From Effusibacillus pohliae DSM 22757 (GTDB lineage Bacteria; Bacillota; Bacilli; Tumebacillales; Effusibacillaceae), in NCBI RefSeq assembly GCF_000376225.1, contig NZ_AQXL01000107.1, forward strand, positions 1 to 40,485: a stretch of 40,485 bases of DNA, read 5' to 3'. The notes beneath the pieces are model-generated. The model made no database searches, was not told where the DNA came from, and was given only the letters and a program-made list of their open reading frames with translations. The position numbers and the translations under genes are program-made. This document shows, piece by piece, positions 19,953 to 38,563 of this stretch. Position 1 is the stretch's first letter, and each line of letters opens with the position of its first letter.

Positions 19953-21425
19953 TTACTGATTTAGGGTCCACACCGTTTTCAACATGGCTTGCATGCTCTC
20001 TGCAATCTGATCGATCTGCCCATCCATCGGAACAGCCGTCAGTGCGAGCACGATCGTCTTTTCCCCCGCCCCAATGTGTGCATGGTGGAAAAGTCGGTTT
20101 CGTTCCTTCAACGATTCCCAAGTGTTTCTACGGCAGGGATACACCATACAGCAGATGGTCTTCTCAGCAGTCGATATGGAAGAGTAAGCTAGAACCTGCA
20201 GCAAATCGATCCGATGACGTTCTCGCAGTGTCTCATCGAGATTACCCCACCGCTCCACGCTCATCTCTTCCCAATGATTCTTGTATTTGGCATCAAAAAT
20301 AATGGTCGTATTCCCCCTGGTATAAATGAGATCGGGCAGCAAATACTTCTGTGACCCCAAATACGGCCGATCCCATCGTAACGGAATGATTGTCTCCCGC
20401 TTTCTTCCTGTACGGACTACGCCACTGTATCTCTTTGCCAAGTGCGATACGATGGTTTCCACCCACGCCTCGAAAAACGTCTCCATGGGCATCATCCAGG
20501 ACAGTCCTTCTAATTCTCCTATTCCAGCCAATCCTCGCTCGTCCACAGTCCAGTGGATGGCTTGGAGTCCATTTCGGAACACATCCGTATGCCCTCTTCT
20601 GGTTTTCCAAGCGTCCAAGTACACACCAGTCGGTTTCTTCGGAGGAATATGTCTAACTCTTTGTAGGAGAGACTGGCATAAATCGAGAAGTCGGAGAACA
20701 ATGGCCCCCGCTTGCCGCTGGGATTCCAAACCGGCCCACTGTTTGAGAAGCGTATAGTGGATGGCAGCTTTCAGTTCACGGTTCTCCTCTAGCTCCGGAA
20801 ACCGGCAGGGGACTTGCAACAACCGGGCATTCGCGACTCGGTTGGAAACGTATGTATCCCATCGGATCGTCCCTTTGGGAGATGTCAGATCTTCTTCTTT
20901 CGTGATGAACTGACGATCCAGGTTTTCGAGTAACTGACGCAAGCGTAATAAAATGGTGGAGGACAGAACCCACGGCGGAATCTTGCGATCAGATTGAGGC
21001 AAAGTAGGCAGGTTCAGAATCGATGGAACCACTCGCCAATTCATCACCCCAAGCATGGATCCGATCCCCATCCACTCAAATCGAGGTCGGACCACCAATC
21101 CGTAATCTGCTTGACCAGTAGTAGGGGACAGAAGTGGAATGGCCCCCACATGAGATTGGGTTTGAAACGAAATCATTACGTCCTGCCCGTCATACTTGAC
21201 ATCGGCGCTAACGCCAAAATCCCGCATAATCCCTCGATTGATTTTGATAAATAAATGGGCCAGCCGTGCTTCCATAGGATGCGGGTCTCTGGCCCGATAA
21301 TCGCGAAACAGCATGGAAGCCGGGATTTGGTGATCCTGCGTGGTGTCTGACAATTCAATGAGGGATTGACCAGCAGGGGGCTCGTTTCTGGGAAGGAGGC
21401 GAAACTGTCGCTTGCGCTTTTTCAT
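19953..21425 (-). CDS. McrC-type nuclease subunit of a McrBC-like restriction system
   Basis: 490 residues. The C-terminal half holds the PD-(D/E)XK core of McrC: LLPDLIYTRGNTTIIFDAKYK gives the PD, D and K ligands. The N-terminal half (residues 1-250) is the McrC DNA/partner-binding part, with SPKGTIRWDTYVSNR and ENRELKAAIHYTL typical of the family. It cleaves DNA with the GTPase/ATPase McrB, usually against modified foreign DNA. Its ATG is one base after the McrB stop codon (TGACATG), so the two are translationally coupled. Codon use and lower G+C than flanking genes suggest transfer. Confidence 0.9.
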   Translation of the reverse strand: MKKRKRQFRLLPRNEPPAGQSLIELSDTTQDHQIPASMLFRDYRARDPHPMEARLAHLFIKINRGIMRDFGVSADVKYDGQDVMISFQTQSHVGAIPLLSPTTGQADYGLVVRPRFEWMGIGSMLGVMNWRVVPSILNLPTLPQSDRKIPPWVLSSTILLRLRQLLENLDRQFITKEEDLTSPKGTIRWDTYVSNRVANARLLQVPCRFPELEENRELKAAIHYTLLKQWAGLESQRQAGAIVLRLLDLCQSLLQRVRHIPPKKPTGVYLDAWKTRRGHTDVFRNGLQAIHWTVDERGLAGIGELEGLSWMMPMETFFEAWVETIVSHLAKRYSGVVRTGRKRETIIPLRWDRPYLGSQKYLLPDLIYTRGNTTIIFDAKYKNHWEEMSVERWGNLDETLRERHRIDLLQVLAYSSISTAEKTICCMVYPCRRNTWESLKERNRLFHHAHIGAGEKTIVLALTAVPMDGQIDQIAESMQAMLKTVWTLNQ

Positions 21426-21426
21426 G

Positions 21427-22893
21427 TCACACCCTCAATTTCTGCATATAGGCGCGAATCTGTTCAGAGAAGCCGGTGACATACCCTTGCACCAGGTACT
21501 CTTCCAGCAATGGCAGCAGAGTTGCCCGAAGCAAGGACAGGTCATCGGTTCCATGCGGATTGAGAAAGTAGGAGTGCCCCGGCATCAACGACATCGCCTC
21601 GTCGTTGGCGTATTCCACAAAAATGGACTGCAGTTCCATAAATAACTGCTGCATAGTCTCATTACTATGCTCGTGGATCACACTCAGTTGCGGCCAAACG
21701 TTCACAAAAGCAAAACGCCTTTGTACGGCAATATCCAGGATGGCAATACTGCGGTCGGCGCTGTTCATCGTTCCAAGTATGTATAAATTGCTTGGCAACC
21801 AAAGCCGGTCATAGAACGGTTCGCCAAAGTCATACGGAAGCATCAAATCCCGTTGCTCCTCCACGGCGTTCGCTTCAAACAAGAAAATGGCCTCACCCAG
21901 TACTTTCGACAGATCCGCACGGTTAATCTCATCGATATGCAGTAGGTAGGGTTTGTCCGGATTTTGCAGAGCTCGCTCGATTGCTACCATCAGATGTCCT
22001 TTCTTGGGAGCAAATTGAAATCCGAATCCGCCTTCTGTCCGCATTGGGGCCAAACCGCCAATGAAATTTTCGTAAGTGGTATTTGCATGGAACTGGACAG
22101 AGAAACCGTTTCCGTGAAAATGTTCATTGAGAAGTATGCGGGCCATCCTGGTTTTACCGGTTCCAGGCGGGCCCTGAAGGATTACAAACCTTCTAGCATT
22201 CAGGAGATCGATAACATCCTCTTCCGATACGGTCGGCATCATGTGTGAAAGATATTGACTACGAATGGTTTCAGATTCGGCCTGTGCACCTTTTAATGGC
22301 ATATGGCCACGTTCTTCAAACATCAAGTCGAGAAACGCAGTAACCGCTGAGCGCGTGGCCTCTTGATCGGCATTGGGTACAAAAAGACCGTATATTTCGT
22401 GACCATACCGTTTGAACACCGACTCGTACAACGAAAACTCACGTTTTACAGAATCAGGAACATTCAAGTCTGTTCGGATCGGGTCATGTTTAGCCCACGC
22501 AATTAATTTTCCCTTGCCGTATTGGTGATTCAACCATTGGCAAATAGACTGAACCTTTCTCGCATGGCCTGGCCTCGACAAGACAGCCTCGTCCGGGCTG
22601 AGTCCCTTTGTACCTACAACTAACCCAACCAGGCACGGTTCGTTTTCAACCGGAAAAATGACGAAACTCAGCCCTCCATAAGCACCTGAATCAGGATTCG
22701 AAGGATGAATGTACGCAGCAAACGGAACTCCTGAATCTCCACGGAACTCAGGAGCGCGCAGTTTGACACTTTTTCGAGCACTTTCCGGATACCGGCCACC
22801 ATTTGCACCAAACAGCTCGTCAAATGCTTCTTGATTACGTTCGTTCCAGTTGGACAGGTCTCGGCTAAGGATGATGTTGATTATTTTTTGCAT
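21427..22893 (-). CDS. McrB-type AAA+ motor subunit of a McrBC-like restriction system
   Basis: 488 residues. N-terminal targeting domain of about 200 residues (SRDLSNWNERNQEAFDELFG onward, with VGLVVGTKGLSPDEAVLSRP), then an AAA+ domain: Walker A GPPGTGKTRMAR, Walker B LLHIDEINRADLSKVLGE, sensor GTMNSADRSIAILDIAVQRRFAF. This matches McrB/DUF3578-type motors; the N-terminal domain decides which DNA is recognised, and I cannot assign its ligand. The start follows TTAAGGAGAAATCGC. It begins only 67 bases after rlmH in the same direction, so it may share that transcript. Confidence 0.9.
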   Translation of the reverse strand: MQKIINIILSRDLSNWNERNQEAFDELFGANGGRYPESARKSVKLRAPEFRGDSGVPFAAYIHPSNPDSGAYGGLSFVIFPVENEPCLVGLVVGTKGLSPDEAVLSRPGHARKVQSICQWLNHQYGKGKLIAWAKHDPIRTDLNVPDSVKREFSLYESVFKRYGHEIYGLFVPNADQEATRSAVTAFLDLMFEERGHMPLKGAQAESETIRSQYLSHMMPTVSEEDVIDLLNARRFVILQGPPGTGKTRMARILLNEHFHGNGFSVQFHANTTYENFIGGLAPMRTEGGFGFQFAPKKGHLMVAIERALQNPDKPYLLHIDEINRADLSKVLGEAIFLFEANAVEEQRDLMLPYDFGEPFYDRLWLPSNLYILGTMNSADRSIAILDIAVQRRFAFVNVWPQLSVIHEHSNETMQQLFMELQSIFVEYANDEAMSLMPGHSYFLNPHGTDDLSLLRATLLPLLEEYLVQGYVTGFSEQIRAYMQKLRV

Positions 22894-23933: not shown

Positions 23934-25097
23934 CTACTTCAATTCACCCAATGTAACCGATACGGTTTTCTCCTGGCTGTTCCGGTAGATTGTGACCTGC
24001 ACAGTGTCACCCGGCTGTTTGGAAAACAGGTATTTTCGCAGGTCAAGGAATGTGTTGATCTTGACATTGTCGATCTTTGCAATCACGTCGCCTTTTTGGA
24101 TACCCGCTTTATCCGCCGGTCCGCCCGGTTGAACTGCGGAGACGACAACACCGTAGTCGATCGTCAAGCCTGCCCGATAGTTTTCGGGAATGTCTCGGAC
24201 ATCCAGGCCTAAACCAACCCCCAGCGCCGCCCGCACCACTTTTCCTTTGGTCATCAATTGATTGATGATCGGTTTCGCTTCATCGATCGGAATCGCAAAG
24301 CCGAGGCCTTCCACTCCGCTTTTGGCGATTTTCGCCGAGTTGATTCCGATCAGCTGCCCCTTGATGTTGACCAGGGCGCCGCCCGAATTTCCCGGGTTGA
24401 TCGCGGCATCCGTCTGCAGCACTGTCTGCTCATACGTGACTCGACCAGTTGGATCTTCAACCGGGATTTTTCTGTTTTTTGCCGAAATCACACCGACTGT
24501 AACCGTTTTTTCAAACTCACCCAACGGGTTTCCGATGGCGATCGCCGGTTCCCCAATCTGCAGGGCGTCGGAACTTCCAAATTCGATCGGTTGAATATCC
24601 TTGATCTTGTCGATTGGAACCTGTAAGACTGCCAAGTCGGTCAAGCGGTCAGTCCCCAGCACTTTCGCTTTCACATGCTCATCATTGATCACCACTTCGA
24701 CGTCGGACGCACCGTCCACCACATGGTTGTTGGTGACGATATGGCCCTGCTTGTCGATCAGCACGCCGGACCCTTTGCCGACCGGTTGCTCATCCTTTTG
24801 CGAGAAGAAGCTGTCCACTTTTTGCAGGTTGACGACCGTTACGACGGCCGGTTTCGCGCGATTGACCGCCTGCACGATATCCGAATTTACATTATAGGTG
24901 ACACCTTGCACCGGACCGTTGCCGTTGGAAATCACCGTTTGACTCTGTTCCGGCAGTTTGATCAAATTCGCTTTCAGCATCGTTGGCACCAGCAGCAACG
25001 TGCTGCCCGAGCCGACCAAAGCCGCGATTATGACAGATGCCAGCCATTGGGCGGACGTCCGTTTCGGCTTGGCATCGAACTCGTCGTAAAATCCCAT
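23934..25097 (-). CDS. htrA: HtrA-type membrane-anchored serine protease
   Basis: 387 residues. A short cytoplasmic N-terminus (GFYDEFDAKPKRTS), one transmembrane helix at about residues 18-37, a trypsin-like domain with catalytic His in VTNNHVVDGA, Asp in DRLTDLAVLQV and Ser in NPGNSGGALVN, then one PDZ domain (GVVVSAVQPGGPADKAGI). It degrades misfolded exported proteins at the membrane surface. The ATG at 25097 follows AAGGAGGGGAGTGCG. It lies after the wal genes as in B. subtilis (yycK), with its own promoter at 25153-25182. Confidence 0.96.
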   Translation of the reverse strand: MGFYDEFDAKPKRTSAQWLASVIIAALVGSGSTLLLVPTMLKANLIKLPEQSQTVISNGNGPVQGVTYNVNSDIVQAVNRAKPAVVTVVNLQKVDSFFSQKDEQPVGKGSGVLIDKQGHIVTNNHVVDGASDVEVVINDEHVKAKVLGTDRLTDLAVLQVPIDKIKDIQPIEFGSSDALQIGEPAIAIGNPLGEFEKTVTVGVISAKNRKIPVEDPTGRVTYEQTVLQTDAAINPGNSGGALVNIKGQLIGINSAKIAKSGVEGLGFAIPIDEAKPIINQLMTKGKVVRAALGVGLGLDVRDIPENYRAGLTIDYGVVVSAVQPGGPADKAGIQKGDVIAKIDNVKINTFLDLRKYLFSKQPGDTVQVTIYRNSQEKTVSVTLGELK

Positions 25098-25152
25098 CGC
25101 ACTCCCCTCCTTGAGGAATCTAATGCCGTAGTATAGACCACGGCACACTTCA

Positions 25153-25182
25153 ATTATACAAACCAAGCGTTTTTTTTCTCAA
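25153..25182 (-). promoter_or_regulatory. Promoter of htrA
   Basis: Minus strand: TTGAGA (25177-25182), an 18-base A-rich spacer, a perfect TATAAT (25153-25158), 55 bases before the start codon. Confidence 0.65.
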
Positions 25183-25301
25183 CTTATCAAGCGGTTTTTA
25201 CATAAATTGTTCAGATTCCCGCTTACACATTCCATACCCGGTTTCAGGATCGGTCAAACGGTCATACTAGTAAAATGACGCCATTTCGAGGAGGAGTTCT
25301 C

Positions 25302-25520
25302 ATGAAAAAAAGCCGCCTCACAGCCGAGGTCGACTTGCTCGCACAGATTGCCGATCTGAAAGAGATCGATTACAAAAATACGCTGCTGTTGACCGCGCTG
25401 ATCGAACTGCTGGTGGAAAAAGGGCTGATCCGCCGGCAGGAAGTGCTGGGCAAAGCGCAGCTTCTCGATGCGGAACTAGAGCATCAAATCGACCAGCAGC
25501 TTACGTCGGCCCAGCACTAG
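25302..25520 (+). CDS. Small conserved-looking helical protein between walJ and htrA
   Basis: 72 residues. The ATG at 25302 follows GAGGAGGAGTTCTC, a strong site. The composition is soluble, charged and leucine-rich: KKSRLTAEVDLLAQIADLK, then ALIELLVEKGLIRRQEVL, helices resembling a short dimerising or helix-turn-helix-like fold without a recognised family. It is transcribed against the flanking wal and htrA genes. Its stop codon lies inside a perfect 15-bp hairpin (25515-25549). Function unknown. Confidence 0.8.
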   Translation: MKKSRLTAEVDLLAQIADLKEIDYKNTLLLTALIELLVEKGLIRRQEVLGKAQLLDAELEHQIDQQLTSAQH

Positions 25521-25549
25521 GGGGCTGCAGGCGGTGCAGCCCCCTAGTG
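25515..25549. terminator. Perfect 15-bp stem hairpin overlapping a stop codon
   Basis: CACTAGGGGGCTGCA, loop GGCGG, TGCAGCCCCCTAGTG. The left arm contains the TAG of the 72-residue gene. It separates convergent transcription units; there is no T run on the plus side, so efficient intrinsic termination is not certain despite the strong stem. Confidence 0.65.
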
Positions 25550-25629
25550 GAAACGGCGGCGCGTGCCGTTCGCCCCCGGCTCCCGCACACCGCCACCGGA
25601 ACACAGCCGGCCCATCAGCGGACAGGCGC

Positions 25630-26454
25630 CTACCGCGGCTTGATCTCATACAGCGCCGTCGGCTTGTCCGGATATGTATGATGCAGGCGAACCTGTTTGT
25701 TCGCCGCGGCCAGAATGCCCTGAACGGTGACTTCCGCCAGTTCCGGGTAATTGTTTTCCTGCGACAGGTGGGCGAGCAGCACGTCCAGCGTCCGTTCCGA
25801 CATGATGTCGACAAGTGCTTCGCCCGCCGCTTCATTCGACAAGTGCCCCTTGTCGCTTAAAATCCTTTTTTTCAGATGCCACGGATACGGTCCGACACGA
25901 AGCATGTTGATATCATGATTGCTTTCCAGGATATACGCATCCGCGTCGGCAACCGTTTCTTTCACGCGTGAACTCATGTACCCGAGATCGGTCGCCAGCG
26001 TCAGTTTGTTGTTCTCGTGATAGAACACATAGCCGACAGGTTCTCTTGCGTCATGCGACAAAGGGAACGGTTCGATCAGCAGGTCCTCGAATTCGAGCTT
26101 GTCCCCCACGCGAACCGTTTTCCGGTACGGTTCCGGGTACTCTTTCACCACATTGTGCAGGTCATGCCACGAACCTTCGGTTGCGTAGATCGGGATTTCC
26201 GTTCGTTCGTACCCTTTTTTTCGCCGCTGGCTGATGATTTTCCGAGCGACCACCCCGACACCTTTGATGTGGTCGAAATGTTCATGCGTAATCAAGATGG
26301 CGTCCAAGTCTTCCAAGCAGACCGAAATCTCCGCCATCGCCGTTTCAATCTGCTTGCAAGCGACGCCAGCGTCGATCAGGATCCGGGTTTTTTCCGTTTC
26401 CACATACACCGCGTTCCCGGAACTCCCGCTTGCAAGCACACTAAACCGCAACAT
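25630..26454 (-). CDS. walJ: WalJ (YycJ) metallo-beta-lactamase-fold hydrolase
   Basis: 274 residues. N-terminal SVLASGSSGNAVYVET and metal motif ITHEHFDHIKG (HxHxDH), further ligands in FPLSHDA and ATDLGYMSS, and VLLAHLSQENNY near the end. YycJ is a cytosolic MBL-fold nuclease-like protein linked to cell-wall/division control and mismatch repair. The ATG follows GGAGGGCATTCG, 24 bases after walI. Last gene of the wal operon. Confidence 0.95.
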   Translation of the reverse strand: MLRFSVLASGSSGNAVYVETEKTRILIDAGVACKQIETAMAEISVCLEDLDAILITHEHFDHIKGVGVVARKIISQRRKKGYERTEIPIYATEGSWHDLHNVVKEYPEPYRKTVRVGDKLEFEDLLIEPFPLSHDAREPVGYVFYHENNKLTLATDLGYMSSRVKETVADADAYILESNHDINMLRVGPYPWHLKKRILSDKGHLSNEAAGEALVDIMSERTLDVLLAHLSQENNYPELAEVTVQGILAAANKQVRLHHTYPDKPTALYEIKPR

Positions 26455-26478
26455 CGAATGCCCTCCTGCTTGTCCCCG

Positions 26479-27282
26479 TCATCTTGCCAATTCGACTTCC
26501 CCCGTCAACGCGTTGACGTAATAGACCTCCCGATCGCTGAGGATTCTCCACATCGGGATCAGGTACCATTCGTCCGCATTGAACGGCTTGCTGTAATAGC
26601 CGAGCCGAATTTCCCGTATGACCCTATTATCGGCCCTCTTCCCTGATTTGTCTATCGACTCGGACAAGGATCGCAGCGCGTGGAGGGCGGAAATCACCTG
26701 TTTTCTGCCGCCGCCTTCCCCGACCACATTCAGCGCGGTCTGCTGATACCGGATCAGCTTTCCCCCTTGCACGACCAGTTCCAACGGCGCGGAAAAAATC
26801 GGGTAGTTGTTATACATCTGCAGATACTGGATGATGCCGCTGTCTTTCGATTCCTGCAGCTTCCGGTCGTATTGGTACGTCTCTTTCGGCGACAGTTTGG
26901 CGCCGATCTGGGCGAGCGCCTTGTCGCCCGGATTGTCTTCTTCCAGATTGACCGCGATATGTTTCTCCGACAAGTCAACCGTCACCTGACCAGGCCCCTG
27001 GTGCAGCAGCTTGCCGCCGCCGATCCGCTTCGCCCATTCGTCCGGCGGCAGCGGCAGGTACCGGACTTGCAAAAATCCCAGTTCAGGCGTCGTTTTCGGT
27101 ACCTCGGTACGCAACTCCCATTTTTGCGAAGCCAACAGTTCCCGCACTTCCGCCAGCTGTTCGGCGAACGATTGGACGTAACTGGCCTGTTCGGTGCGGG
27201 CTTGCCAATATTGATACCCAAGCACGATATCCAACAGCAGGAACGTCAAAATCAGATAGGTTTTCGCCCGGCTCCAGTCCAC
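26479..27282 (-). CDS. walI: WalI (YycI) regulator of the WalK kinase
   Basis: 267 residues. One N-terminal transmembrane helix (YLILTFLLLDIVLGY) and an extracytoplasmic domain ending with DREVYYVNALTGEVEL, the PepSY-like finish of the YycI family. With WalH it holds WalK in check through transmembrane contacts. The start is GTG at 27282 with GGGGGAATGACAG upstream, three bases after the walH stop. Confidence 0.93.
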   Translation of the reverse strand: MDWSRAKTYLILTFLLLDIVLGYQYWQARTEQASYVQSFAEQLAEVRELLASQKWELRTEVPKTTPELGFLQVRYLPLPPDEWAKRIGGGKLLHQGPGQVTVDLSEKHIAVNLEEDNPGDKALAQIGAKLSPKETYQYDRKLQESKDSGIIQYLQMYNNYPIFSAPLELVVQGGKLIRYQQTALNVVGEGGGRKQVISALHALRSLSESIDKSGKRADNRVIREIRLGYYSKPFNADEWYLIPMWRILSDREVYYVNALTGEVELAR

Positions 27283-27285
27283 CTG

Positions 27286-28563
27286 TCATTCCCCCGTATC
27301 GAGCCATTTCTCGCCCGTTTGCGCATCGTAGATCGCCGTCGGTGTCCTTGGGTATTCCACGACCCATACCGGCTGCAGCCGGACGTTCCCTTCCGCTTCC
27401 TTCGCAGCGTAAGCCAGGTAGAGATCGCTCGCCCCCTGCCGAATCGCTGGTGCAGGAGGATGAATCTCCACAACCTCTTCTTTCAGAACGGCCCCCAGGT
27501 ACATCGCGCTGCGGGTCATGTCCACCACTTCGCTGCCGTTCAGCGCCACCTGAATTCCTGTCACTCCTGACAACACCGGAAGTCCGTGCCGGTACTCGTT
27601 GAACAGATATTCTTGATGCTCCCCCCAGGCGGTTTGCAGCCGGCCGACATACGCCCCCTGCATGCCGCCATGCTCATTGACAAACGCGACCGCCCGCTGA
27701 AACGCATTGTCTTTCGGCTGCGAGTCCTGCTGTTTTTCCAGCGGCTGCGGGTTGGAATAGTGGATTTTGCGCCCTTTTGCAGAGATCTGCACCGTTCGGC
27801 TGCCGTCCGTCACAATCAGCGAACCGTCCCGCTCCTGAATCCTGCGGGTCAGCGTCGGATCGACAAAAAACGTCCGGGCCAATGAATCTGCCGGCAGCGG
27901 TACCGATTTGCAGGTGATCACCGGTACCCTGATTTTTTCGTTCGGCAGCAAAAATGGCCCGTTCGCTCCCGTTTGCTCCACATACTTTGGCAGCGAGCCC
28001 CACTGGGCCAGCTGCTGGAACAGTCCGGCCTGCTCCGCAATTCGGCCGCGGTAGACCGGCTGTCCTTTCGCAACCAGCGCCGCGTAACCGGCACCGGCAG
28101 GGTCCCGATAGACGAGAATCGCGGTAACCTTCAGCGGGAACTGGTTGGGTGCGATCGTCTTCAGGATGCGAAACACCTGTTCCGCGTTTAATTCCGTCCC
28201 GAACTGAAATTGCATGTAGGGGGCGGCGTGAATCGCCTGCAGCAGTGCGGCCGGATCCACCACCGGTAGCCACTCGCGGACCGTCAGCTTTTTCAGCTCG
28301 TCCCACGCTTTTTCGTACGCGTCCGTAAACGGTCCGGCCACGGTGAAACTCTTGTCCTCCAGCCGCGCCGAGATTTGTACAGGCACCAGCACTTGATCCA
28401 CGCTTTTTCCCAACCCGAAAGCGGGATTCGGGATATACCCGGCCTGATCCAGCGGCTCGAACACGGGCGTGTTCGTCCACAGCGCGATCGACAAAACGAT
28501 CGACAACGCCACCAACACTGCCAACAGGGCGCTTTTCACCCGTTCGATGCGATTCGCCGTCAC
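27286..28563 (-). CDS. walH: WalH (YycH) regulator of the WalK kinase
   Basis: 425 residues. An N-terminal transmembrane helix (ALLAVLVALSIVLSIALW) then three extracytoplasmic domains; the fragments PVFEPLDQAGYIPN and IPVSCK-type SITCKSVPLP region are consistent with YycH. The last segment, TAIYDAQTGEKW, resembles the end of WalI. The start is GTG at 28563, overlapping the walK stop by four bases (GTGA) behind AAAGGAGGGGGCGGC, so translation is coupled. Controls WalK activity together with WalI. Confidence 0.93.
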   Translation of the reverse strand: MTANRIERVKSALLAVLVALSIVLSIALWTNTPVFEPLDQAGYIPNPAFGLGKSVDQVLVPVQISARLEDKSFTVAGPFTDAYEKAWDELKKLTVREWLPVVDPAALLQAIHAAPYMQFQFGTELNAEQVFRILKTIAPNQFPLKVTAILVYRDPAGAGYAALVAKGQPVYRGRIAEQAGLFQQLAQWGSLPKYVEQTGANGPFLLPNEKIRVPVITCKSVPLPADSLARTFFVDPTLTRRIQERDGSLIVTDGSRTVQISAKGRKIHYSNPQPLEKQQDSQPKDNAFQRAVAFVNEHGGMQGAYVGRLQTAWGEHQEYLFNEYRHGLPVLSGVTGIQVALNGSEVVDMTRSAMYLGAVLKEEVVEIHPPAPAIRQGASDLYLAYAAKEAEGNVRLQPVWVVEYPRTPTAIYDAQTGEKWLDTGE

Positions 28564-30323
28564 GCCGCCCCCTCCTTTGCAACCGGCAGAGTGAAGGTGA
28601 CTGTGGTTCCTTGATCAACCACGCTTTCAATCCAAATGTGACCGCCGTGCGCTTCAATGATCTGTTTGGCGATCGACAGTCCCAAGCCGGTGCCTCCCAA
28701 TTTTCGCGAGCGCGCCTTGTCCACCCGGTAAAACCGCTCAAAAATCCGGGGGATGTCTTTCGGCGGGATGCCGATGCCGGAATCGATCACTTTCACTTCC
28801 ACAACATCCTGCCGGGTGCTGGCCGTCAAACGGATCATCCCTTGCGGCGGCGTATGTTTCAACGCATTGGAAACCAGATTGTCCAGCACCTGCACCAGTT
28901 TGTCACGGTCGGCCCAGACCATTGGTAGGGTCGGCGGCACTTCCACAAACATCGAAATTTCCTGCTGCCGGCATTGAAACGAAAAGCGATCCGCCACCTC
29001 ATCGAGAATCTGCAGCAAATTGGTGCCAGCGAACGACCACTGCATCTTCCCGGCATCCAGCCGCGACAGCTGCAGCAATTCGCTGACCATACGCACCATG
29101 CGTTCCGTTTCATTTTGGATCACCTGCAAAAACCGGGTGCGCAGGGTCGGCTCTTCGACCGCCCCATCCTCGAGCGCTTCCAGATAGCTTTTGATCGTCG
29201 TCAGCGGCGTGCGGATTTCGTGCGACACATTCGCCACAAAATCGCGACGCGCCTGCTCTTCCCGCTCTTCCTCGGTGATGTCGCGAATCACGATCACCAG
29301 CCCGGCATGCCCCTGTTCGCCGCGAATCGGCGAGGCATACGCTTGCAAAGTGCGTCCTTTCGGCCCTTTGAACTGCATTTCCCGGCCAGCCATCAGGAAG
29401 TCGGCCTTCTCCTGCTCTTCCTCGATCATCAGCAATTGGCTGATCGGCTGCCCGACCGGGTCTTCTTCGCAATCGAGCAACAATTTGGCTGCCGGATTGA
29501 TCCGCACGATTCGGTTGGACGCATCGACGGCGATCACCCCGTCGCTCAGATGGGTGAGAATCGCCTCCAGCTTTTCCCGTTCCCGTTCGTTTTCGGCCAA
29601 GGCCCCCTGCAAGCGGTGGATCAAGTAGTTGAACGCTTCGCCCAACTGGCCGATCTCATCATCGCTGCGGACGTGTACGGTCTGGTTGAAATCGCCTTTT
29701 GCCATCGCCTTCGCTTTCCTCGTAATCTCGACAATCGGGCTGGTGATCGTCTGCGCCAGCGCCACACCAAGGATCGCCGTCAGCACGAGCGCAATCAGCA
29801 GCCCCGTGTAAAACATCACGTTGATCTCTTTGATCGTTTTGTAAATTTTGTTCATCGGGGCAACCAGATAAACCGCGCCGACCACTTCCGAACCGTTTTT
29901 GATCGGCACAGCCAAAAAAGTGTACCGCTGCCCGGTCGGCGCATCCTCCCGGATCACTTCGTCCTTGCTGCCGAGCAGCGCCCGGGTCACCTCCGTTCGC
30001 AGCCGTTTCTGTCCGACATACGACTTGTCGGCTGACGTGGCGATGATCGTTCCATTTTTGTTCAACACGTAGATTTCCGATTCGGAGGCAAATGAAGTAA
30101 TCAGATTGTCGATATCTTTCACCGTTTCCGGGGTGATCTCTTTTTCCATGTAGCGTTCCAGTTGAGCGGACAAAAACCGCGCCTGTGTGTTAATGGTTGT
30201 CGAAAAATTTCCGAGGAAATAGGAGTTGACCGAGCGAATGAAATAGACGCCGATCAACTGCATCGCAAACAAAATCAGCAGCAGGTACATCAGCACGAGT
30301 TTGCCGCGAATGCTTCGGAACAA
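28560..30323 (-). CDS. walK: WalK (YycG) essential sensor histidine kinase
   Basis: 587 residues. TM1 near residues 8-30, an extracellular Cache/PAS-like sensor to about residue 170, TM2 (YTGLLIALVLTAILGVAL), HAMP, a cytoplasmic PAS domain (GVIAVDASNRIVRINPAA), the H-box FVANVSHEIRTPL with the phospho-His, the N-box LDNLVSNALKHTP and G-boxes DSGIGIPPKD and GGTGLGLSIAK. It responds to cell-wall state and phosphorylates WalR. The start is TTG at 30323 behind AGGAGG with nine-base spacing, seven bases after the walR stop. Confidence 0.97.
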   Translation of the reverse strand: MFRSIRGKLVLMYLLLILFAMQLIGVYFIRSVNSYFLGNFSTTINTQARFLSAQLERYMEKEITPETVKDIDNLITSFASESEIYVLNKNGTIIATSADKSYVGQKRLRTEVTRALLGSKDEVIREDAPTGQRYTFLAVPIKNGSEVVGAVYLVAPMNKIYKTIKEINVMFYTGLLIALVLTAILGVALAQTITSPIVEITRKAKAMAKGDFNQTVHVRSDDEIGQLGEAFNYLIHRLQGALAENEREREKLEAILTHLSDGVIAVDASNRIVRINPAAKLLLDCEEDPVGQPISQLLMIEEEQEKADFLMAGREMQFKGPKGRTLQAYASPIRGEQGHAGLVIVIRDITEEEREEQARRDFVANVSHEIRTPLTTIKSYLEALEDGAVEEPTLRTRFLQVIQNETERMVRMVSELLQLSRLDAGKMQWSFAGTNLLQILDEVADRFSFQCRQQEISMFVEVPPTLPMVWADRDKLVQVLDNLVSNALKHTPPQGMIRLTASTRQDVVEVKVIDSGIGIPPKDIPRIFERFYRVDKARSRKLGGTGLGLSIAKQIIEAHGGHIWIESVVDQGTTVTFTLPVAKEGAA

Positions 30324-30329
30324 GGAGAC

Positions 30330-31016
30330 CTACCTCCTCATGCAGTATCCGACACCCCGGCGAGTCAAAATGTACTTTGGATCGCTCGGATCCGTTTCGA
30401 TCTTTTCCCGCAGCCGGCGGATCGTCACGTCGACCGTGCGGATATCCCCCAGGTAATCGAATCCCCAGACTTCCTGCAGCAGATGTTCGCGGGTCAGCAC
30501 GGTGCCGCGGTGTCTCGCCAGATACACCAGCAACTCGAATTCGCGATGGGTCAGGTCCAGCACTTCCCCGTTTTTTGTGACCTGGTAGGTGGAAGTGTCG
30601 ATCACCAGCTCATCGATCACATAACGGGGCTTCGCATGCAGCAGCGGTTCCTGGTTCTGCCGCCGCAGGTTCGCCTTGACGCGGGCCATCAATTCCCGTG
30701 ACGAAAATGGCTTGGTCACATAATCGTCCGCCCCGAGTTCCAATCCGAGCACCTTGTCGATCTCCGAATCGCGGGCGGTCAGCATGATGATCGGCACCGC
30801 CAGGAAGGAACGGATTTCCTGGCAGACCTGAAAACCGTCTTTTTTCGGCAGCATCACATCGAGCAAAATCAAATCGGGCTGTTCCGCGTGCGCCATCTCC
30901 ACCGCCTCTTCCCCGTCGTGGGCGAGGATCACCTCATAGCCTTCCTTCTCCAGGGAAAATTTTAATATATCGGCTATCGGCAGCTCGTCTTCGACCACCA
31001 AAATTTTCTGGTTCAT
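30330..31016 (-). CDS. walR: WalR (YycF) essential response regulator
   Basis: 228 residues, OmpR family. Receiver with acidic pair VVEDE, phospho-acceptor Asp53 in LILLDVMLP and Lys in [11 protein letters not shown]; the C-terminal winged helix has [15 protein letters not shown] and the recognition region [16 protein letters not shown]. It controls cell-wall hydrolase genes. The ATG follows AAAGGGTGGAAATGC. First gene of the wal operon (walR-walK-walH-walI-walJ), read leftward. Confidence 0.98.
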
Positions 31017-33263: not shown

Positions 33264-33339
<76 letters not shown>

Positions 33340-33398: not shown

Positions 33399-33569
33399 CT
33401 AGAAGATCCAGACAAAGACGGATACGCATGCGGCGTAAAAAAAGGCGGCCGCCGGAATCCACAACGTATGCAGGGAAGGGTTGGGTTCCCTCCGCCATTT
33501 TGCAATCCCATAGCGAATACAACCGTACGCCAGCAACAAAATGCTGATCGTGAGCACTGTTTCATACAT
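33399..33569 (-). CDS. 56-residue two-helix membrane protein
   Basis: ATG at 33569 behind GGAGGAAAGCTGCT, 56 codons to TAG at 33399-33401. Two hydrophobic helices, ETVLTISILLLAYGCIRYGI and IPAAAFFYAACVSVFVWIF, are joined by a basic loop (KWRREPNPSLH). It is the last gene of the leftward coiled-coil operon, 80 bases after the last coiled-coil gene. No family recognised; a hairpin of helices this small could be an accessory or holin-like peptide. Confidence 0.72.
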   Translation of the reverse strand: MYETVLTISILLLAYGCIRYGIAKWRREPNPSLHTLWIPAAAFFYAACVSVFVWIF

Positions 33570-33649
33570 AGCAGCTTTCCTCCTTTCGGGAGAAACGGTG
33601 TGTGTTTCGTTCCATTTGTGCTAGGTCGCGGGCATATGCGAACCCCTTA

Positions 33650-34177
33650 TTACGGAAGCAGCCGGAGCGGATACAGTTTGTCGTTCAGTTCCTTCAGTTT
33701 TGCGATCGATTGTTGCGTCAACCGGTTCAGCTGCATGACCTGGCCGGCTTCCTGCCCGCTTTGCCCGGCAGAGACGTTGCTCGCCTGCAGAATGCCGGAA
33801 TTCACCTGGCTCATGCTGAACAAGGCGCCGCTTGCCGATTGCGTCACCTGATTTAACGAATCGAGTCCCGCGATGATCGCTTGCTCACTATTGCCGATCG
33901 ACCGCAGTCTGTCGTTCATCCCGGCCAAATTATTGACTATCTGCTCCTGTTGCTGTTCAATGTCGCTCAACGCATTGCTGGTTTCGTACAACGGCTGCAA
34001 CGTGTCGGATGTTTCTTGCACCAAACGCCCGGTTGTCACAATCGACTGGTTGATCACATCCATCGCCTTGTTGATCTTCGCTTGCATGGCGGCCTGTTGC
34101 AGCAGGCTGTAGCCGAACGTACCGCCGCCCGCTGTCCCCAACAAAATCAAGCCGATCGTGACCCATTTTCCCATCAT
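33650..34177 (-). CDS. Membrane-anchored coiled-coil protein 5 of the array
   Basis: 175 residues from the ATG at 34177 (site GGGGAGGGGAAGTC; a second ATG follows at once). One N-terminal helix (WVTIGLILLGTAGGGTFGYSL), then a Gln/Ser/Asn-rich helical domain to the end with heptad-like Leu/Ile spacing (NALSDIEQQQEQIVNNL, NSEQAIIAGLDSLNQV). The few basic residues at the N-terminus suggest that the bulk lies outside the membrane, or that the chain is a long extracytoplasmic coiled coil. It is unrelated in detailed sequence to its four neighbours but has the same plan. No enzymatic motif seen. Confidence 0.85.
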   Translation of the reverse strand: MMGKWVTIGLILLGTAGGGTFGYSLLQQAAMQAKINKAMDVINQSIVTTGRLVQETSDTLQPLYETSNALSDIEQQQEQIVNNLAGMNDRLRSIGNSEQAIIAGLDSLNQVTQSASGALFSMSQVNSGILQASNVSAGQSGQEAGQVMQLNRLTQQSIAKLKELNDKLYPLRLLP

Positions 34178-34222
34178 GACTTCCCCTCCCCGTCTTGTGC
34201 TTTGGCCACCCGGCCGAATGTC

Positions 34223-34951
34223 CTACAGCAAACTGCGTAGCGGATCAATTACGGAAGGTGTCTGTTGCGTCTGCCCGCCGCGCAGCAAGTGTTCGATCAC
34301 TGATGGTGGCTGTTGCTGCTGCAAACCACGGAGCACGTCATTGATTACGGTGGAAGGCTGCCGCAAAAGGTCCTTCAGTTTGCCAAACAGCCTGAACGCA
34401 TCCTGCGATCTTTGCAGTTCCGCCAACAGTCGGTCCATTTGATCGTTCAGCGTTCTTGATTCGCGGCTGCTGACTTGCAACGAACCGGCTACTTTCTGCA
34501 GGATTTCCGCATTCTGCGCCACATCTTGCGTCAGTTGCCGCACCTGGCTGTCCACCTTGTTCGTCCATGTAACGCTGGTTTGCTCCCGCTGCAAAATTTG
34601 TTCCATCAAGCTGACACCTTCGGCCGTCAACTGCTGTTGGGTTTTCAGTTCGATGATCAGGTTTTTGCCGGTTTCCGTCTGTTTTTGCAAAATCGCTTCT
34701 TGCTGATTGAGCTGGCCCAGTTTTGCCTCCACCTTTTGCACCTGTTGATGCAATGATTTCGTGTTGTCAAGCATCTGGTTGGTGGTGCCGCTGAGTTCAT
34801 GAATCATTCCAAGCAGGTCACCCGATTGTACAAATGGCAGTTTCGGGGCGGCCGACGCCACCAGTCCGGCGATCCCGGATGCCAGCAGCAATCCGGCCAG
34901 GCTGATCCACGCCCACCGCGGAACCTGATTCACCTGCAGTTTTGGAATCAT
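34223..34951 (-). CDS. Membrane-anchored coiled-coil protein 4 with C-terminal short repeats
   Basis: 242 residues. The ATG at 34951 shares one base with the stop codon of the upstream gene (TGATG), behind GGGGGGGCAACTG. One helix (WAWISLAGLLLASGIAGLVA), then a long coiled coil (SLHQQVQKVEAKLGQLNQQE, QEAILQKQTETGKNLI). The C-terminus holds three imperfect copies of a P-S-x-V/I-I unit: PSTVINDVLRG, PSVIEHLLRG, PSVIDPLRSL, about 16 residues apart with Gln-rich linkers. Such repeats look like a binding peptide or an anchor. Function unknown. Confidence 0.85.
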   Translation of the reverse strand: MIPKLQVNQVPRWAWISLAGLLLASGIAGLVASAAPKLPFVQSGDLLGMIHELSGTTNQMLDNTKSLHQQVQKVEAKLGQLNQQEAILQKQTETGKNLIIELKTQQQLTAEGVSLMEQILQREQTSVTWTNKVDSQVRQLTQDVAQNAEILQKVAGSLQVSSRESRTLNDQMDRLLAELQRSQDAFRLFGKLKDLLRQPSTVINDVLRGLQQQQPPSVIEHLLRGGQTQQTPSVIDPLRSLL

Positions 34952-35493
34952 CAGTTGCCCCCCCATCTTGGCAAAATTGCCGTTTTCCGGTTCATCTCGT
35001 CGAGGTTCTGGTTGATCCGCTGCTGGTCCTGCATCATTTGATTCAAATTGGCGATCACTTGCCCGTTTGCTAGCGAAATCTTTTGCAAAAAATCGAGCAG
35101 CGCGCGGGCGGTCGCTTCTGTTGTTTGAATCTGACTGACCGATTGCTGCGTCGATTGGCCGATCGTTTGCACCGACTGGTTAATGCCGGCAACCGTCTGG
35201 TCAAGCGTCACCAGCCCTAGATGCATGTCGTGGGTGGCTGATTGCAGCTGTTTGACTGTGCCCGCCATGTGGAGGGTTGTGTCTTTTAACTCGGTCAGAC
35301 CATTGAGTCCGCTTTTCATGGAGTCGGACAGTTGTTGCGCCTCCACGACCTGGGCGCGCAGCTTCTCCGATTTGACCGCAATGTCCCGCTGCACACCCAT
35401 CTGCACCAGGCCGTTCACGCCAAGTCCCAGCAAACACAAGACGGTGATCAATTTCGGAATGGAAAGCGCTTGCAGCCAGTCTTTCGGATTCAT
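34951..35493 (-). CDS. Membrane-anchored coiled-coil protein 3 of the array
   Basis: 180 residues. The start at 35493 overlaps the previous gene by four bases (ATGA) behind GGGGGTGTCACC, so the two are coupled. One helix (IPKLITVLCLLGLGVNGLVQ), then a helical region with repeated Thr/Gln/Ser-rich heptads (LNGLTELKDTTLHMAGTV, GINQSVQTIGQSTQQSV). Resembles the helical rods of chemoreceptors but lacks the conserved signalling hairpin. Same anchor-plus-coil plan as its neighbours. Confidence 0.85.
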   Translation of the reverse strand: MNPKDWLQALSIPKLITVLCLLGLGVNGLVQMGVQRDIAVKSEKLRAQVVEAQQLSDSMKSGLNGLTELKDTTLHMAGTVKQLQSATHDMHLGLVTLDQTVAGINQSVQTIGQSTQQSVSQIQTTEATARALLDFLQKISLANGQVIANLNQMMQDQQRINQNLDEMNRKTAILPRWGGN

Positions 35494-35999
35494 GGTGACA
35501 CCCCCGGCGTTTTTTGGTTCATTTGCTCGGTGTACTGCTTCATCTTTTGCAGATTGGCCCGGTCTTGCTCAGTCAGCTGCTGGAGCCGCTGGAGCGATCG
35601 GAAGAGTTGTTCAGTCGCCTGTTTGAGTTGCTCCATACCGCTCGTGATCGACTGCAGCGATTGGTTGCTTTGACTGCCCGATGCAATCATATTTTGATTT
35701 AGCTGCAGCGTGTCGGCGTTCAACTGATTGATCAGTTGGATGTTGGAGCGGATCGCCTGCGTCACCTGCAACGACGACCCCAGTTGCTGATTCATCTGTT
35801 TGGTGGTGGCGATCACTTGGCCAAGCGACTCGTTTTTCTCGATGATCGCCTTCTGCACGGAGATCAGCCGGGATGTGGAATCGAGGCTCGTGTTGAGGCC
35901 CGAGTCAATTTTTCCAAGGTAGTAGGTGGTCACCATCGTTTGCACCAGCAAACCGACCACCGCGGTCATTCCCAAGTAACCCAACGCTTTCAAAATCAT
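35490..35999 (-). CDS. Membrane-anchored coiled-coil protein 2 of the array
   Basis: 169 residues. The ATG at 35999 is behind GGAGGGGAAAAGCG; the longer upstream frame lacks a site. N-terminal helix (LGYLGMTAVVGLLVQTMV), then a coiled coil with strong Leu/Ile spacing (QLIQ-type QAIRSNIQLINQLNADTLQ, MEQLKQATEQLFRSLQRLQQ). The C-terminus is Gln/Thr-rich and ends PGVSP. Its stop overlaps the next gene start. Confidence 0.85.
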   Translation of the reverse strand: MILKALGYLGMTAVVGLLVQTMVTTYYLGKIDSGLNTSLDSTSRLISVQKAIIEKNESLGQVIATTKQMNQQLGSSLQVTQAIRSNIQLINQLNADTLQLNQNMIASGSQSNQSLQSITSGMEQLKQATEQLFRSLQRLQQLTEQDRANLQKMKQYTEQMNQKTPGVSP

Positions 36000-36018
36000 C
36001 GCTTTTCCCCTCCGTGCG

Positions 36019-36546
36019 TTAAGGCATGTTCGATGCAACCTGGCCGCTCGCTTGTGTGGCGCGGTCCAGTTTGCCGGCAATGCTGCCGTTTACATCGGCC
36101 ACCTCTTGCGCCAGCCGGCTCAACGAGTTGGCGGTCTCCAGCAGCTTTTGCACAGAACCGAATTGGCTGGCGGATGCCTGCTGAACATCACGCAGATCGG
36201 TTGCGAGGATGCCGGCCAAGCGGTTCAAGCTCGAACTCAGCTCGACTTGTTTGCTGCTCAGCCGGTTCAAGTCTGCCAGGGACGCGTCCTGCTCTGACAT
36301 CCCTTGTTGCAGCGTCAGCAGGCCGTTATGAATGCGGGCGGTCGTATCCGACTGCCGATTGATGTTCTCCATGTCTTTCAGGATCTTGTCGTTGACGCTG
36401 TTGATCCCTTCGTTGTTGGCGTTGATATGGCGAATCATCCCAAGGACGTCCAGTTTTTCCGGAATATGCAGATGGGGCACCGGCGCCCACGCCACGACGG
36501 CGAACGGGATGCCAAATGCGAGGATCGCTCGCGTGTAATAGTTCAT
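36019..36546 (-). CDS. Membrane-anchored coiled-coil protein 1 of the array
   Basis: 175 residues. The ATG at 36546 follows GGAGGGAAGAGC, 11 bases after the acyl-CoA synthetase stop. A short N-terminal helix (AILAFGIPFAVVAWAP) precedes a Pro-containing linker (PHLHIPEKLDVLG) and a coiled coil (GLLTLQQGMSEQDASLADL, FGSVQKLLETANSLSRLAQ). Could be anchored or exported by an uncleaved leader. First of five consecutive coiled-coil genes. Confidence 0.85.
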   Translation of the reverse strand: MNYYTRAILAFGIPFAVVAWAPVPHLHIPEKLDVLGMIRHINANNEGINSVNDKILKDMENINRQSDTTARIHNGLLTLQQGMSEQDASLADLNRLSSKQVELSSSLNRLAGILATDLRDVQQASASQFGSVQKLLETANSLSRLAQEVADVNGSIAGKLDRATQASGQVASNMP

Positions 36547-36557
36547 GCTCTTCCCTC

Positions 36558-38408
36558 CTATCTCACCCACAACCGGACCAGGATACCGAAGAGAATGCCG
36601 GCTGCCGCATAGGGCCAGATCGGTCGTTTGCGTCCCTGTTCGGTCGCCTGCGGCTGGCCGGCTGCCGGAAGCGGTTGGCCCGTTGTTTGAACCGATTCAT
36701 CCGTTTGGTCAAAAATCGGCAGGTATTCTTCGCCCGCATACATCGACTCGATCTGCGGTCCGTATTTTTGCAGGATCACCTTGTTGCGGACTTTCAGCGT
36801 GGGCGTCAAATCCCCCGCTTCCATGCTCAGTTCGTTCGCCAGCAGGACTGCACGTTTCGGCCGTTCGAAATCGGCAAACTTCTCGGCGGCGCGCATCACT
36901 TCCTGCCGGATAAGCGATCGGACCGGCTCCGACTGCAGCCACACGTGCCGGTCATCGCCCAGATTGTGCTCGGCGGCGATCGGAGCCAGCGCGGCAAAAT
37001 CGGGCACCAGGAGGCAGGCCACATAAGTTCGCCGGTCGCCGATCAGCACCGCCTCGGCGATGTACGGGCTCAACGTGATGCTGTTCTCGATCGGCCACGG
37101 GGCAACATTTTTGCCGGTGGCAAGCACCAGAATGTTTTTCTTGCGGTCGACGATCTTCACATAACCATCTTCGATTTCCGCAATGTCGCCCGTGCGCAGC
37201 CAGCCGTCTTCCGTGAACGTATTGGCTGTCTCGTCCGGCGCTTTGTAGTAGCCTTGCATGACGTTCGGGCCTTTCACCTGCAGTTCCCCGTCGTCCGCCA
37301 GCCGGATCTGCACGCCGGGAATCGGTTTGCCGACCGTGCCCGGCCGCGCCTCGTTGTAGCGATTGGCGCAAATCACCGGCGCCGTCTCGGTCATCCCGTA
37401 TCCTTCATAGACAGGCAGGCCGGCCTGATGGAAAAATTCCGCAATATCGGCAGCCAATCCGGCTCCGCCCGAGATGATGTAGCGGATGCGTCCGCCGAAG
37501 CCGGCCCGTAATTTTCGCCGGATCAACCAACCGACCGGTAGAACCACCCGCAAAAATCGCGGAATTTTGTTCGTCCGCTGCTGAATGCCGGCGTACACTT
37601 TTTCAAGCAGACGCGGTACGGTGGTGAACACGGTCGGCCGCACCTCGCGCAGGTTCTGCTGGATTTTTTCGATGCCTTCCGCGTAGGCGATGGCCGCTCC
37701 GCACGACAAAACGGCGTACTGTCCGACCGTTCGTTCAAAAATATGCGACAAAGGAAGAAACGATAAGGTGACATCGGTCGGTTCGACAGGCAGGCAGGTC
37801 AAACTGGCTTGGATATTGGAAACAATGTTTGCGTGGGTGAGCATGACGCCTTTTGGCGTGCCGGACGTGCCGGATGTATGGACGATCGTGGCGAGCTGGT
37901 CGTCTTCGATGGAGGAAATGTCGGGCAACTGCAGCGACGGCAACCGTTCCTTTCCGATCGCGCGAATGTCCGCAAACGTCAGGATCTGTCGGCCGCAGTC
38001 CACCGGATCCCCGAAAAATTGCACCGCCAGCTTGAGATGGGACGGCCAGCGGGCGTCCACTTTTTGCAGTTGGGCGGCGTCTTCCGCCATCAGGCAACTG
38101 ACATCCGCATTTCGCAAAATGAACTCCACTTGCTCGGCCGGCAGGGTCGGATAGATCGGCACGACAACCGCCCCAAGCGACAAAATCGCGTAATCGCTGA
38201 TCGCCCACTGCGGACAATTGGTGGACAAAATGGCGACCTTGTCGCCCGGCTGCACGCCGCATGCCAGCAAGCCGGCCGCAACCTCCCGGATCGCGTCCCA
38301 AAATTCCCCGTACGTGATCGACTGATAGCGCTTTCCCTGCTTGTAGAGAAGACACGGCCGGTCAGCGTGATTATTTACTGACTTGCGCAACAATTCGAGA
38401 AGATTCAT
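36558..38408 (-). CDS. AMP-dependent long-chain acyl-CoA synthetase with C-terminal membrane anchor
   Basis: 616 residues. Adenylate-forming signature: P-loop-like HTSGTSGTPKGVMLTH, FLPLSHIFERTVGQY, the acyl-binding turn YGMTETAPV, GWLRTGDIAEIEDGYVKIVDRKK with the hinge, and the catalytic Lys region LTPTLKVRNKVI. Closest in layout to FadD15/AcsL-type long-chain ligases, which make acyl-CoA from fatty acid, ATP and CoA. The ATG at 38408 is behind AAAGGGGAG; GTG at 38414 is an alternative. Unusual tail: a Pro/Gln-rich linker (GQPLPAAGQPQATEQG) then a predicted transmembrane helix WPYAAAGILFGILVRLW. It heads the coiled-coil array operon. Confidence 0.93.
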   Translation of the reverse strand: MNLLELLRKSVNNHADRPCLLYKQGKRYQSITYGEFWDAIREVAAGLLACGVQPGDKVAILSTNCPQWAISDYAILSLGAVVVPIYPTLPAEQVEFILRNADVSCLMAEDAAQLQKVDARWPSHLKLAVQFFGDPVDCGRQILTFADIRAIGKERLPSLQLPDISSIEDDQLATIVHTSGTSGTPKGVMLTHANIVSNIQASLTCLPVEPTDVTLSFLPLSHIFERTVGQYAVLSCGAAIAYAEGIEKIQQNLREVRPTVFTTVPRLLEKVYAGIQQRTNKIPRFLRVVLPVGWLIRRKLRAGFGGRIRYIISGGAGLAADIAEFFHQAGLPVYEGYGMTETAPVICANRYNEARPGTVGKPIPGVQIRLADDGELQVKGPNVMQGYYKAPDETANTFTEDGWLRTGDIAEIEDGYVKIVDRKKNILVLATGKNVAPWPIENSITLSPYIAEAVLIGDRRTYVACLLVPDFAALAPIAAEHNLGDDRHVWLQSEPVRSLIRQEVMRAAEKFADFERPKRAVLLANELSMEAGDLTPTLKVRNKVILQKYGPQIESMYAGEEYLPIFDQTDESVQTTGQPLPAAGQPQATEQGRKRPIWPYAAAGILFGILVRLWVR

Positions 38409-38437
38409 CCCCACTCGCTCCCCTTTCCCCCGAATGT

Positions 38438-38510: not shown

Positions 38511-38541
38511 AAAAAACAGCCACCTGGCGAGCAGGCGGCTG
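38511..38541 (-). terminator. Terminator of purA
   Basis: Minus strand: CAGCCGCCTG (38532-38541), loop, CAGGTGGCTG (38517-38526), then a T run. Lies 23 bases past the purA stop. Confidence 0.92.
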
Positions 38542-38563
38542 CTTGTGGTTGGTTCGTTTCTCT

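Follow-up and report, generated by a model that had tools for sequence, protein, structure and literature searches.

A conserved array of five membrane-anchored coiled-coil rods joined to a membrane-tethered acyl-CoA synthetase in Effusibacillus pohliae and other Bacilli, a candidate apparatus for fatty acid uptake

What might five different coiled-coil proteins, each held to the membrane by a single N-terminal helix, be doing beside a long-chain-type acyl-CoA synthetase (ACS)? The question is raised by a stretch of 40,485 nucleotides of Effusibacillus pohliae DSM 22757, one whole contig (NZ_AQXL01000107.1) and here called the window, in which the minus strand carries the synthetase, the five rods A to E and a small membrane protein F in the order ACS–A–B–C–D–E–F. 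The gene set is well supported, as are the C-terminal membrane tail of the synthetase and the fusion of the enzyme to rod A at other loci. No description of such a system was found in the open-access literature, as judged by titles and the starts of abstracts, and no curated family of Pfam or NCBIfam exceeds its cut-off on the window's rods; the gene system is real and conserved, and on these two grounds apparently undescribed. As to what it does, the reading we tentatively favour, at somewhat short of an even chance, is that the rods form a hetero-oligomeric coiled-coil bundle in the wall zone which, with the membrane-tethered synthetase, would take up and activate external fatty acids.

Comparison with other genomes shows by computation that the array is conserved. 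In a first survey rod C was searched in 41 genomes and matched in seven; of the six besides the window's own, five have the complete array and one (G001) has fragments only. A survey of the class, with a six-row rod E profile against 398 genomes, matched 39, of which 35 were retained, G001 and G252 among them holding only remnants; it gives 33 loci with all five rods, the window included, in ten families. At all 32 loci outside the window the rods are recognised by their own profiles in the order A-B-C-D-E, and such conservation of order places the array beyond chance. The overlap of genes B and C is exactly 4 bases at 23 of these 32 loci and 1 base at four, and rod E aligns with nearly no indels within the rod across 33 sequences. 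The original prediction, made from the window's letters alone, made much of whether the cluster is kept in any other genome, and it is kept in ten families; the co-occurrence it looked for, of the synthetase with at least three rods, extends well beyond the Alicyclobacillaceae which it named, the ACS being fused or directly adjacent at 23 of the 33 five-rod loci. Carriers known by name, four among the 80 loci listed in the synthetase scan, are Alicyclobacillus tolerans, A. fastidiosus, A. pomorum and Lihuaxuella thermophila, the loci of the last two being identical with L095 and L103. In a sample of 398 genomes of the phylum, some of them belonging to the class, a full-length rod E match occurs only in the window's genome. 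Protein F is recognised at L047-L050, L093, L115, L117 and L120, and not at every locus at this sensitivity. Open reading frames (ORFs) are damaged or misread at two loci, L092 (rod A ends early and B is a short ORF) and L113 (B is split).

Weak and partial matches to rod E in four class genomes of one genus (f18), falling on ORFs of 684-705 residues, were dropped as not being rods, as were those in three other genomes of the phylum sample. In G001, from the window's own genus, the locus L046 (7765-10185) has the ACS and rods A, B, C and E only as short ORFs or fragments, with D and F not recognised, so that the unit seems to be decaying in this one species. At L118 all that was recognised is a piece of rod E containing a stop; this too is apparently a decayed array, and its genome, G252, is a congener of G279, where the fused form occurs. 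An extra coiled-coil ORF with a repeated pattern lies a few genes downstream of the rods at L115 (13315-13869) and gives weak profile matches only.

The synthetase exceeds the gathering thresholds of two Pfam families, PF00501 (299.4 bits against 29.9, E 4.4e-89) and the C-terminal domain PF23562 (42.6 against 20.8, E 9.7e-11), and among the 25 NCBIfam models listed for it none reaches its cut-off, the best being FadD11 with 333 of 950 bits; its substrate may be a long-chain fatty acid. The unusual transmembrane tail attributed to it is present, as a 77-residue extension ending in a hydrophobic helix. A separate tailed ACS stands directly upstream of the rods at 11 of the 33 five-rod loci (the window, L047, L048, L103-L109 and L112), and at 12 of the 33 the C-terminus of the ACS continues into rod A, a fused form that A. 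tolerans and A. fastidiosus also have; L098 is truncated by the end of its own contig. The tail is found in all 11 distinct separate rod-linked enzymes (12 rows, since L103 and L124 are one gene) as against none of 90 rows of unlinked relatives, among which one gene appears twice (L102/L207) and has a C-terminus that looks broken. Likewise the median number of residues after the last conserved motif is 92 in the separate linked enzymes against 27 in unlinked relatives, and the best-window hydropathy of the tail runs from 1.59 to 2.54 in linked enzymes, no unlinked row exceeding 0.95. From this computed distribution of tail and fusion it follows that an anchor, be it the tail helix or rod A itself, is seen only where rods adjoin. 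The enzyme thus resembles the FadD-type synthetases in being an AMP-binding enzyme with FadD11 as its nearest, if sub-threshold, NCBIfam model, and differs from them in its tail or rod fusion. One genome, G002, holds both kinds and may serve as a natural control, with a tailed enzyme beside the rods (L047) and a tail-less close paralogue elsewhere (L055, 8320-10125).

In a midpoint-rooted FastTree of rods B, C and E taken together, loci with a linked ACS, whether fused or adjacent, occur in both deep halves and the unlinked loci are scattered, which suggests, without a formal test, that the link between synthetase and rods is old and has been lost several times. Within this tree, those loci of the window's genus that have a separate ACS gene are placed among fused ones, with weak support.

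All five rods of the window follow the common plan ascribed to them, one N-terminal hydrophobic helix and then a rod rich in Gln, Ser, Thr, Asn and Leu, and charged residues make up 17-21% of the rod families. A hydrophobic period of 3.48-3.49 is computed for all five family profiles over 142-150 residues (rod D having been trimmed to 150), and 56-residue windows give 3.42-3.52, with none of 500 shuffles as strong. The median length after the hydrophobic helix is 148 for B, 152 for C, 152.5 for A (range 112-173) and 153 for E, rod D being longer. AlphaFold2 models, which cover rods E and D, predict long helices in both, that of E with a mean predicted local distance difference test score (pLDDT) of 84.8, and about 150 residues of helix would amount to about 22 nm.

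Whether five rods of one length and period are also of one descent was addressed by profile-profile comparison with reversed alignments as control. They had been described as little alike, and pairwise this stands (17-20% to rod A), whereas by profile at least C and E are related. The C-E match has a probability of 98.1 (E 9.7e-14, 171 columns), as against at most 55.4 for 24 of 25 reversed pairings and 92.4 (E 5.1e-7) for C with its own reverse; B-C (95.7), A-B (94.9), B-E (94.7) and A-C (93.8) come only slightly above this worst control, A-E (92.3) and A-D (91.9, over 22 columns) do not exceed it, and C-D (81.7), D-E (51.1) and B-D (13.0) are lower. Paralogy is clear for rods C and E and probable for A and B, and all five may be kin. 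A motif LGM(I/L) is common to A and D at the rod start, and a motif N-x-K to B, C and E near the end. When the rods are aligned by these shared motifs, A, B, C and E start and end, by our estimate, within about 6 residues of each other with agreeing heptad phase, and conserved polar core residues fall in common layers, level 45 being polar in all five families and levels 98 and 154 in four each. The mean correlation of polar core positions between families is 0.182 at the motif-set register; random heptad shifts give 0.019 (standard deviation 0.056), and of 687 such shifts 3 reach as high a value. As for the heteromeric set that had been supposed, five distinct proteins of similar length and the same heptad period are indeed kept together, which supports it indirectly, and it is likely that they make one hetero-oligomer.

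Since the synthetase needs ATP and CoA it must be cytosolic, and in the fusion the cytosolic enzyme precedes the transmembrane helix with the rod coming after, so that rod A lies outside the membrane. Averaged within each rod family, net charge comes to +1.0 to +2.6 on the N-terminal flank of the helix and to +0.1 to +0.35 on its far side. The wall-binding SLH proteins that neighbour the array at three loci agree with an outside position of the rods. AxA motifs like those of signal peptides occur past the hydrophobic helix in 12 of 32 A, 13 of 33 D, 7 of 33 C, 2 of 33 E and none of 31 B sequences, and are not used here as proof.

To our knowledge no dedicated machine has been assigned to the passage of long-chain fatty acids across the Gram-positive wall. 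On the reading we favour the unit would be one envelope apparatus for this, in which the five rods, each a heptad helix of about 150 residues behind an N-terminal membrane helix, would project from the outer face of the cytoplasmic membrane and assemble, parallel and in register, into one hetero-oligomeric coiled coil of about 22 nm, long enough to cross much of the wall. At its foot the synthetase, on the cytosolic side, would be tethered through its tail helix or through being a single polypeptide with rod A. The bundle would capture long-chain fatty acids and pass them to the membrane, and on emerging inside they would be turned into acyl-CoA and so trapped, this being the vectorial acylation familiar from FadD-type synthetases, with the acyl-CoA feeding beta-oxidation or lipid synthesis. 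We infer the number of chains in the oligomer, the ligand, the direction of transport and the role of F.

Two precedents make fatty acid import plausible by analogy. The Mce1 fatty acid importer of mycobacteria comprises YrbE1AB, Mce1A-F and MceG, from an operon which also holds fadD5, and its six different subunits are described as forming one helical needle that extends about 225 Å and contains a hydrophobic fatty acid tunnel (PMC9882608). In both systems several distinct subunits combine a transmembrane helix with long helical stretches and are encoded in an operon with an acyl-CoA synthetase. The Mce1 needle, in contrast, is built of eight kinked modules, said there to be unlike 6-helix coiled coils, where the rods keep one steady heptad period, and FadD5 is reported to be absent from the purified complex (PMC9882608), where the synthetase of the array can be fused to a rod. 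An MCE transporter as such was considered and rejected, the MCE/MlaD domain (PF02470) that belongs to Mce1 being present in none of the 35 rod-bearing genomes and found in 4 of 14 control genomes. The second precedent is COMP, a coiled coil of five strands whose axial channel binds fatty acids of C14-C18 length, the key residues of its core being Met, Thr/Asn and Gln (PMC3487892). Here the likeness would lie in the left-handed heptad bundle and in Met, Thr, Asn and Gln being among the key residues of a fatty acid channel; the difference is that COMP is one animal protein and a homopentamer, as against five different long bacterial rods. The heptad period, length and five distinct chains of the rods would fit a COMP-like five-helix bundle. 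A sharper form of the proposal, a dedicated machine by which bacteria with one membrane and a thick wall would import fatty acids, is a heteropentameric tube of about 22 nm crossing the wall, whose axial channel, with rings of Thr, Asn, Gln and Ser between leucine layers, takes up fatty acids in the manner of COMP and hands them to a synthetase fused to one side of the tube; it strikes us as distinctly unlikely.

A number of results weigh against uptake by such a bundle. The tight coupling of synthetase and rods foreseen by the original prediction holds at the 23 linked loci and fails at the other ten, which it had not foreseen: no adjacent ACS stands at L049-L051, L102, L110 and L113-L117, at L102 one standing three genes away. 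In three of the rod genomes without an adjacent ACS (G155, G181 and G095) no synthetase of this type is found at E 1e-60; the remaining seven have their best relative at another place in the genome and without a tail, so that rods can evidently do without a tethered ACS. The agreement of polar layers could stem from common descent alone, since the offsets were set by shared motifs; the single pairs A-C, A-D and C-E correlate better at another shift; and many core positions are polar, unlike a simple greasy pore. The kinship of rod D with the other rods is uncertain, and the positive-inside bias of the rods holds as a mean only (in rod E, for 17 of 33 sequences). A metabolic association speaks for uptake, if equivocally. 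At least nine acyl-CoA dehydrogenase genes, in counts that run to nine per genome and were read by hand from the matches listed, occur in 31 of 35 rod-bearing genomes, two with decayed arrays included, against 30 of 94 rod-free genomes of the same families. A permutation test stratified by family, which is how relatedness was handled, gave p 5e-5, the floor of 20,000 permutations, over the seven families with both kinds (26 genomes with rods, 94 without), three of the ten families having no rod-free genome and being left out; genome size gave p 0.14. Aldehyde dehydrogenase, the control family, is however mildly enriched as well (p 0.047, 67 genomes of four families), and the ratio of acyl-CoA dehydrogenase to aldehyde dehydrogenase gives p 0.068 only, so that the link of the rods to fatty acid breakdown is suggestive and in part one of general catabolic richness.

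Much of this could be met by a scaffold without transport, in which the rods are a wall-reaching scaffold or tether that gathers other lipid enzymes together with the synthetase in one membrane domain and fatty acids flip-flop untouched by them. No permease stands out among the shared neighbours (permease families were not searched by name), which speaks for such a scaffold and against uptake; anchoring alone would explain both tail and fusion; the rods persist at the ten loci without an adjacent ACS; and neighbours with SLH domains at three loci hint at a structural role in the wall. A plain tether, however, needs no five different rods, yet these are kept together at all 32 other loci, and we regard this scaffold as possible though rather unlikely. 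An envelope sensor has also to be considered, in which the rods would relay mechanical or chemical signals through the wall, in the way of chemoreceptor coiled coils, and the ACS and a TetR-type regulator would be output or feedback. TetR-type regulators do lie near the ACS or rods at 7 loci, three of them confirmed by Pfam, although one compared with the PDB gave eight matches at 1e-5 under general names from which no sensing role was drawn. The rod B profile matches chemoreceptor chains (2ch7, E 7e-6), but designed and viral coiled coils match it as well or better (8qae, 3.1e-10; 7y9n, 3.1e-6), so that the chemoreceptor match is generic; the PDB matches of rods E and B, to designed bundles, viral fusion stalks and chemoreceptors, are those of coiled coils in general. 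No signalling domain comes above cut-off, MCPsignal (PF00015) being listed for rod C only with 10.9 bits against a cut-off of 34.6, and a sensor is accordingly an improbable answer.

Just as little can be given to lipid assembly for the spore or outer envelope, where the set would be made in sporulation and provide acyl chains to the spore's membranes or coat. Spore formation is described for Alicyclobacillus and Effusibacillus (PMC5023266, PMC8502169), against which stand the restriction of the array or its remnants to just 35 of the 398 class genomes and a dehydrogenase number that points, weakly, to catabolism; this too we consider improbable. That the rods are generic low-complexity coiled coils, spuriously grouped and without a common function, might be read from their weak matches to many unrelated coiled-coil families, but gene order conserved across ten families, five separate profiles each finding its own gene in the right place and a rod E nearly without indels go against it, and being refuted by the synteny it is scarcely credible. 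Nor do families already known claim the rods: no chemoreceptor or phage family, the outcome that had been named as undoing the idea, reaches a curated cut-off or E 0.001 on those of the window. In PHROGs there is no match at 0.01 for rods A, B, C and E and for F, rod D having three weak partial ones (E 0.002-0.009), and the PADLOC defence models give three weak matches (E 0.0003-0.001) on the rod D coiled coil and none at 0.001 for the other six proteins. Of the roles listed earlier, which were a scaffold in the membrane, its remodelling, the uptake of fatty acids and lipid assembly for spores, the evidence leans, without proof, to the uptake of fatty acids, with their activation, by the rod bundle and its synthetase.

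Were this favoured uptake reading true, the array would be a convergent counterpart of Mce1 made of simple heptad coiled coils, and would also provide a naturally heteromeric coiled coil with five defined chains, each of about 21 heptads. As it stands the array is a conserved candidate in which a fusion links an enzyme that activates fatty acids in the cytosol with a rod outside the membrane, and even if the transport idea fails, five rods of one length, one period and one operon offer a ready system for the study of how coiled coils choose partners.

The unit in the window is laid out as in Table 1. The ORFs foretold for it are all present, at the positions and on the minus strand given, as is the small membrane protein said to close the unit, and the overlaps of 4 bases (B/C) and 1 base (C/D) and the 11 bases between ACS and A agree with the sequence; the ATG at 38408, formerly taken as the gene end, lies two codons inside an ACS ORF which starts at GTG 38414. 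The array also has wider gaps, of 19 (A/B), 45 (D/E) and 80 bases (E/F).

Table 1. Features of the rod array and its upstream boundary in the window
Feature	Position	Strand	Description
ACS, long-chain-type acyl-CoA synthetase (AMP-binding)	36558..38414	minus	618 residues from GTG
Rod A	36019..36546	minus	175 residues; N-terminal hydrophobic helix, LDxLGMI-type motif, heptad coiled coil
Rod B	35490..35999	minus	169 residues; N-terminal transmembrane helix and coiled coil of about 145 residues
Rod C	34951..35493	minus	180 residues; N-terminal transmembrane helix and coiled coil
Rod D	34223..34951	minus	242 residues; predicted transmembrane helix 12-31, linker, 152-residue helix 46-197, low-confidence C-terminal tail (AlphaFold2)
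Rod E	33650..34177	minus	175 residues; one unbroken predicted helix 3-172, transmembrane part and coiled coil (AlphaFold2)
F, small membrane protein	33399..33569	minus	56 residues; two hydrophobic stretches
Terminator-like stem-loop between purA and the ACS gene	38514..38544	minus	13 pairs; possible upstream boundary of the unit

The unit is bounded by purA, behind the terminator-like stem, on one side and on the other by a tRNA-Phe gene at 33264-33339, just after F. Terminator-like stems in the region number 7 against 7.3 expected by shuffling, which is about the chance rate. A sigma-70 promoter match was sought ahead of the ACS gene and none was found; one of 11 of 12 positions lies ahead of tRNA-Phe at 33387-33359. 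Across loci, as regards a YrbE/MlaE permease and ATPase encoded near the rods, no neighbour cluster besides the ACS, the rods and F is common to more than 8 of 32, permease families not having been searched by name. Proteins with SLH domains, which are wall-binding, stand beside the array in three families, at L115 (5708-7030), L117 (12823-14319) and L047 (13094-13990), two of them directly ahead of rod A with a similar C-terminus and the third following F. Near the unit in the window, at 23934-31016, is a two-component pair followed by further genes, which by eye we take to be WalR-WalK-like and then YycH/YycI/YycJ-like and HtrA-like. At 19953-22893 a gene with a P-loop ATPase motif adjoins one with a DAKYK nuclease-like motif, the two resembling, again by eye, a restriction pair of the McrB/McrC type.

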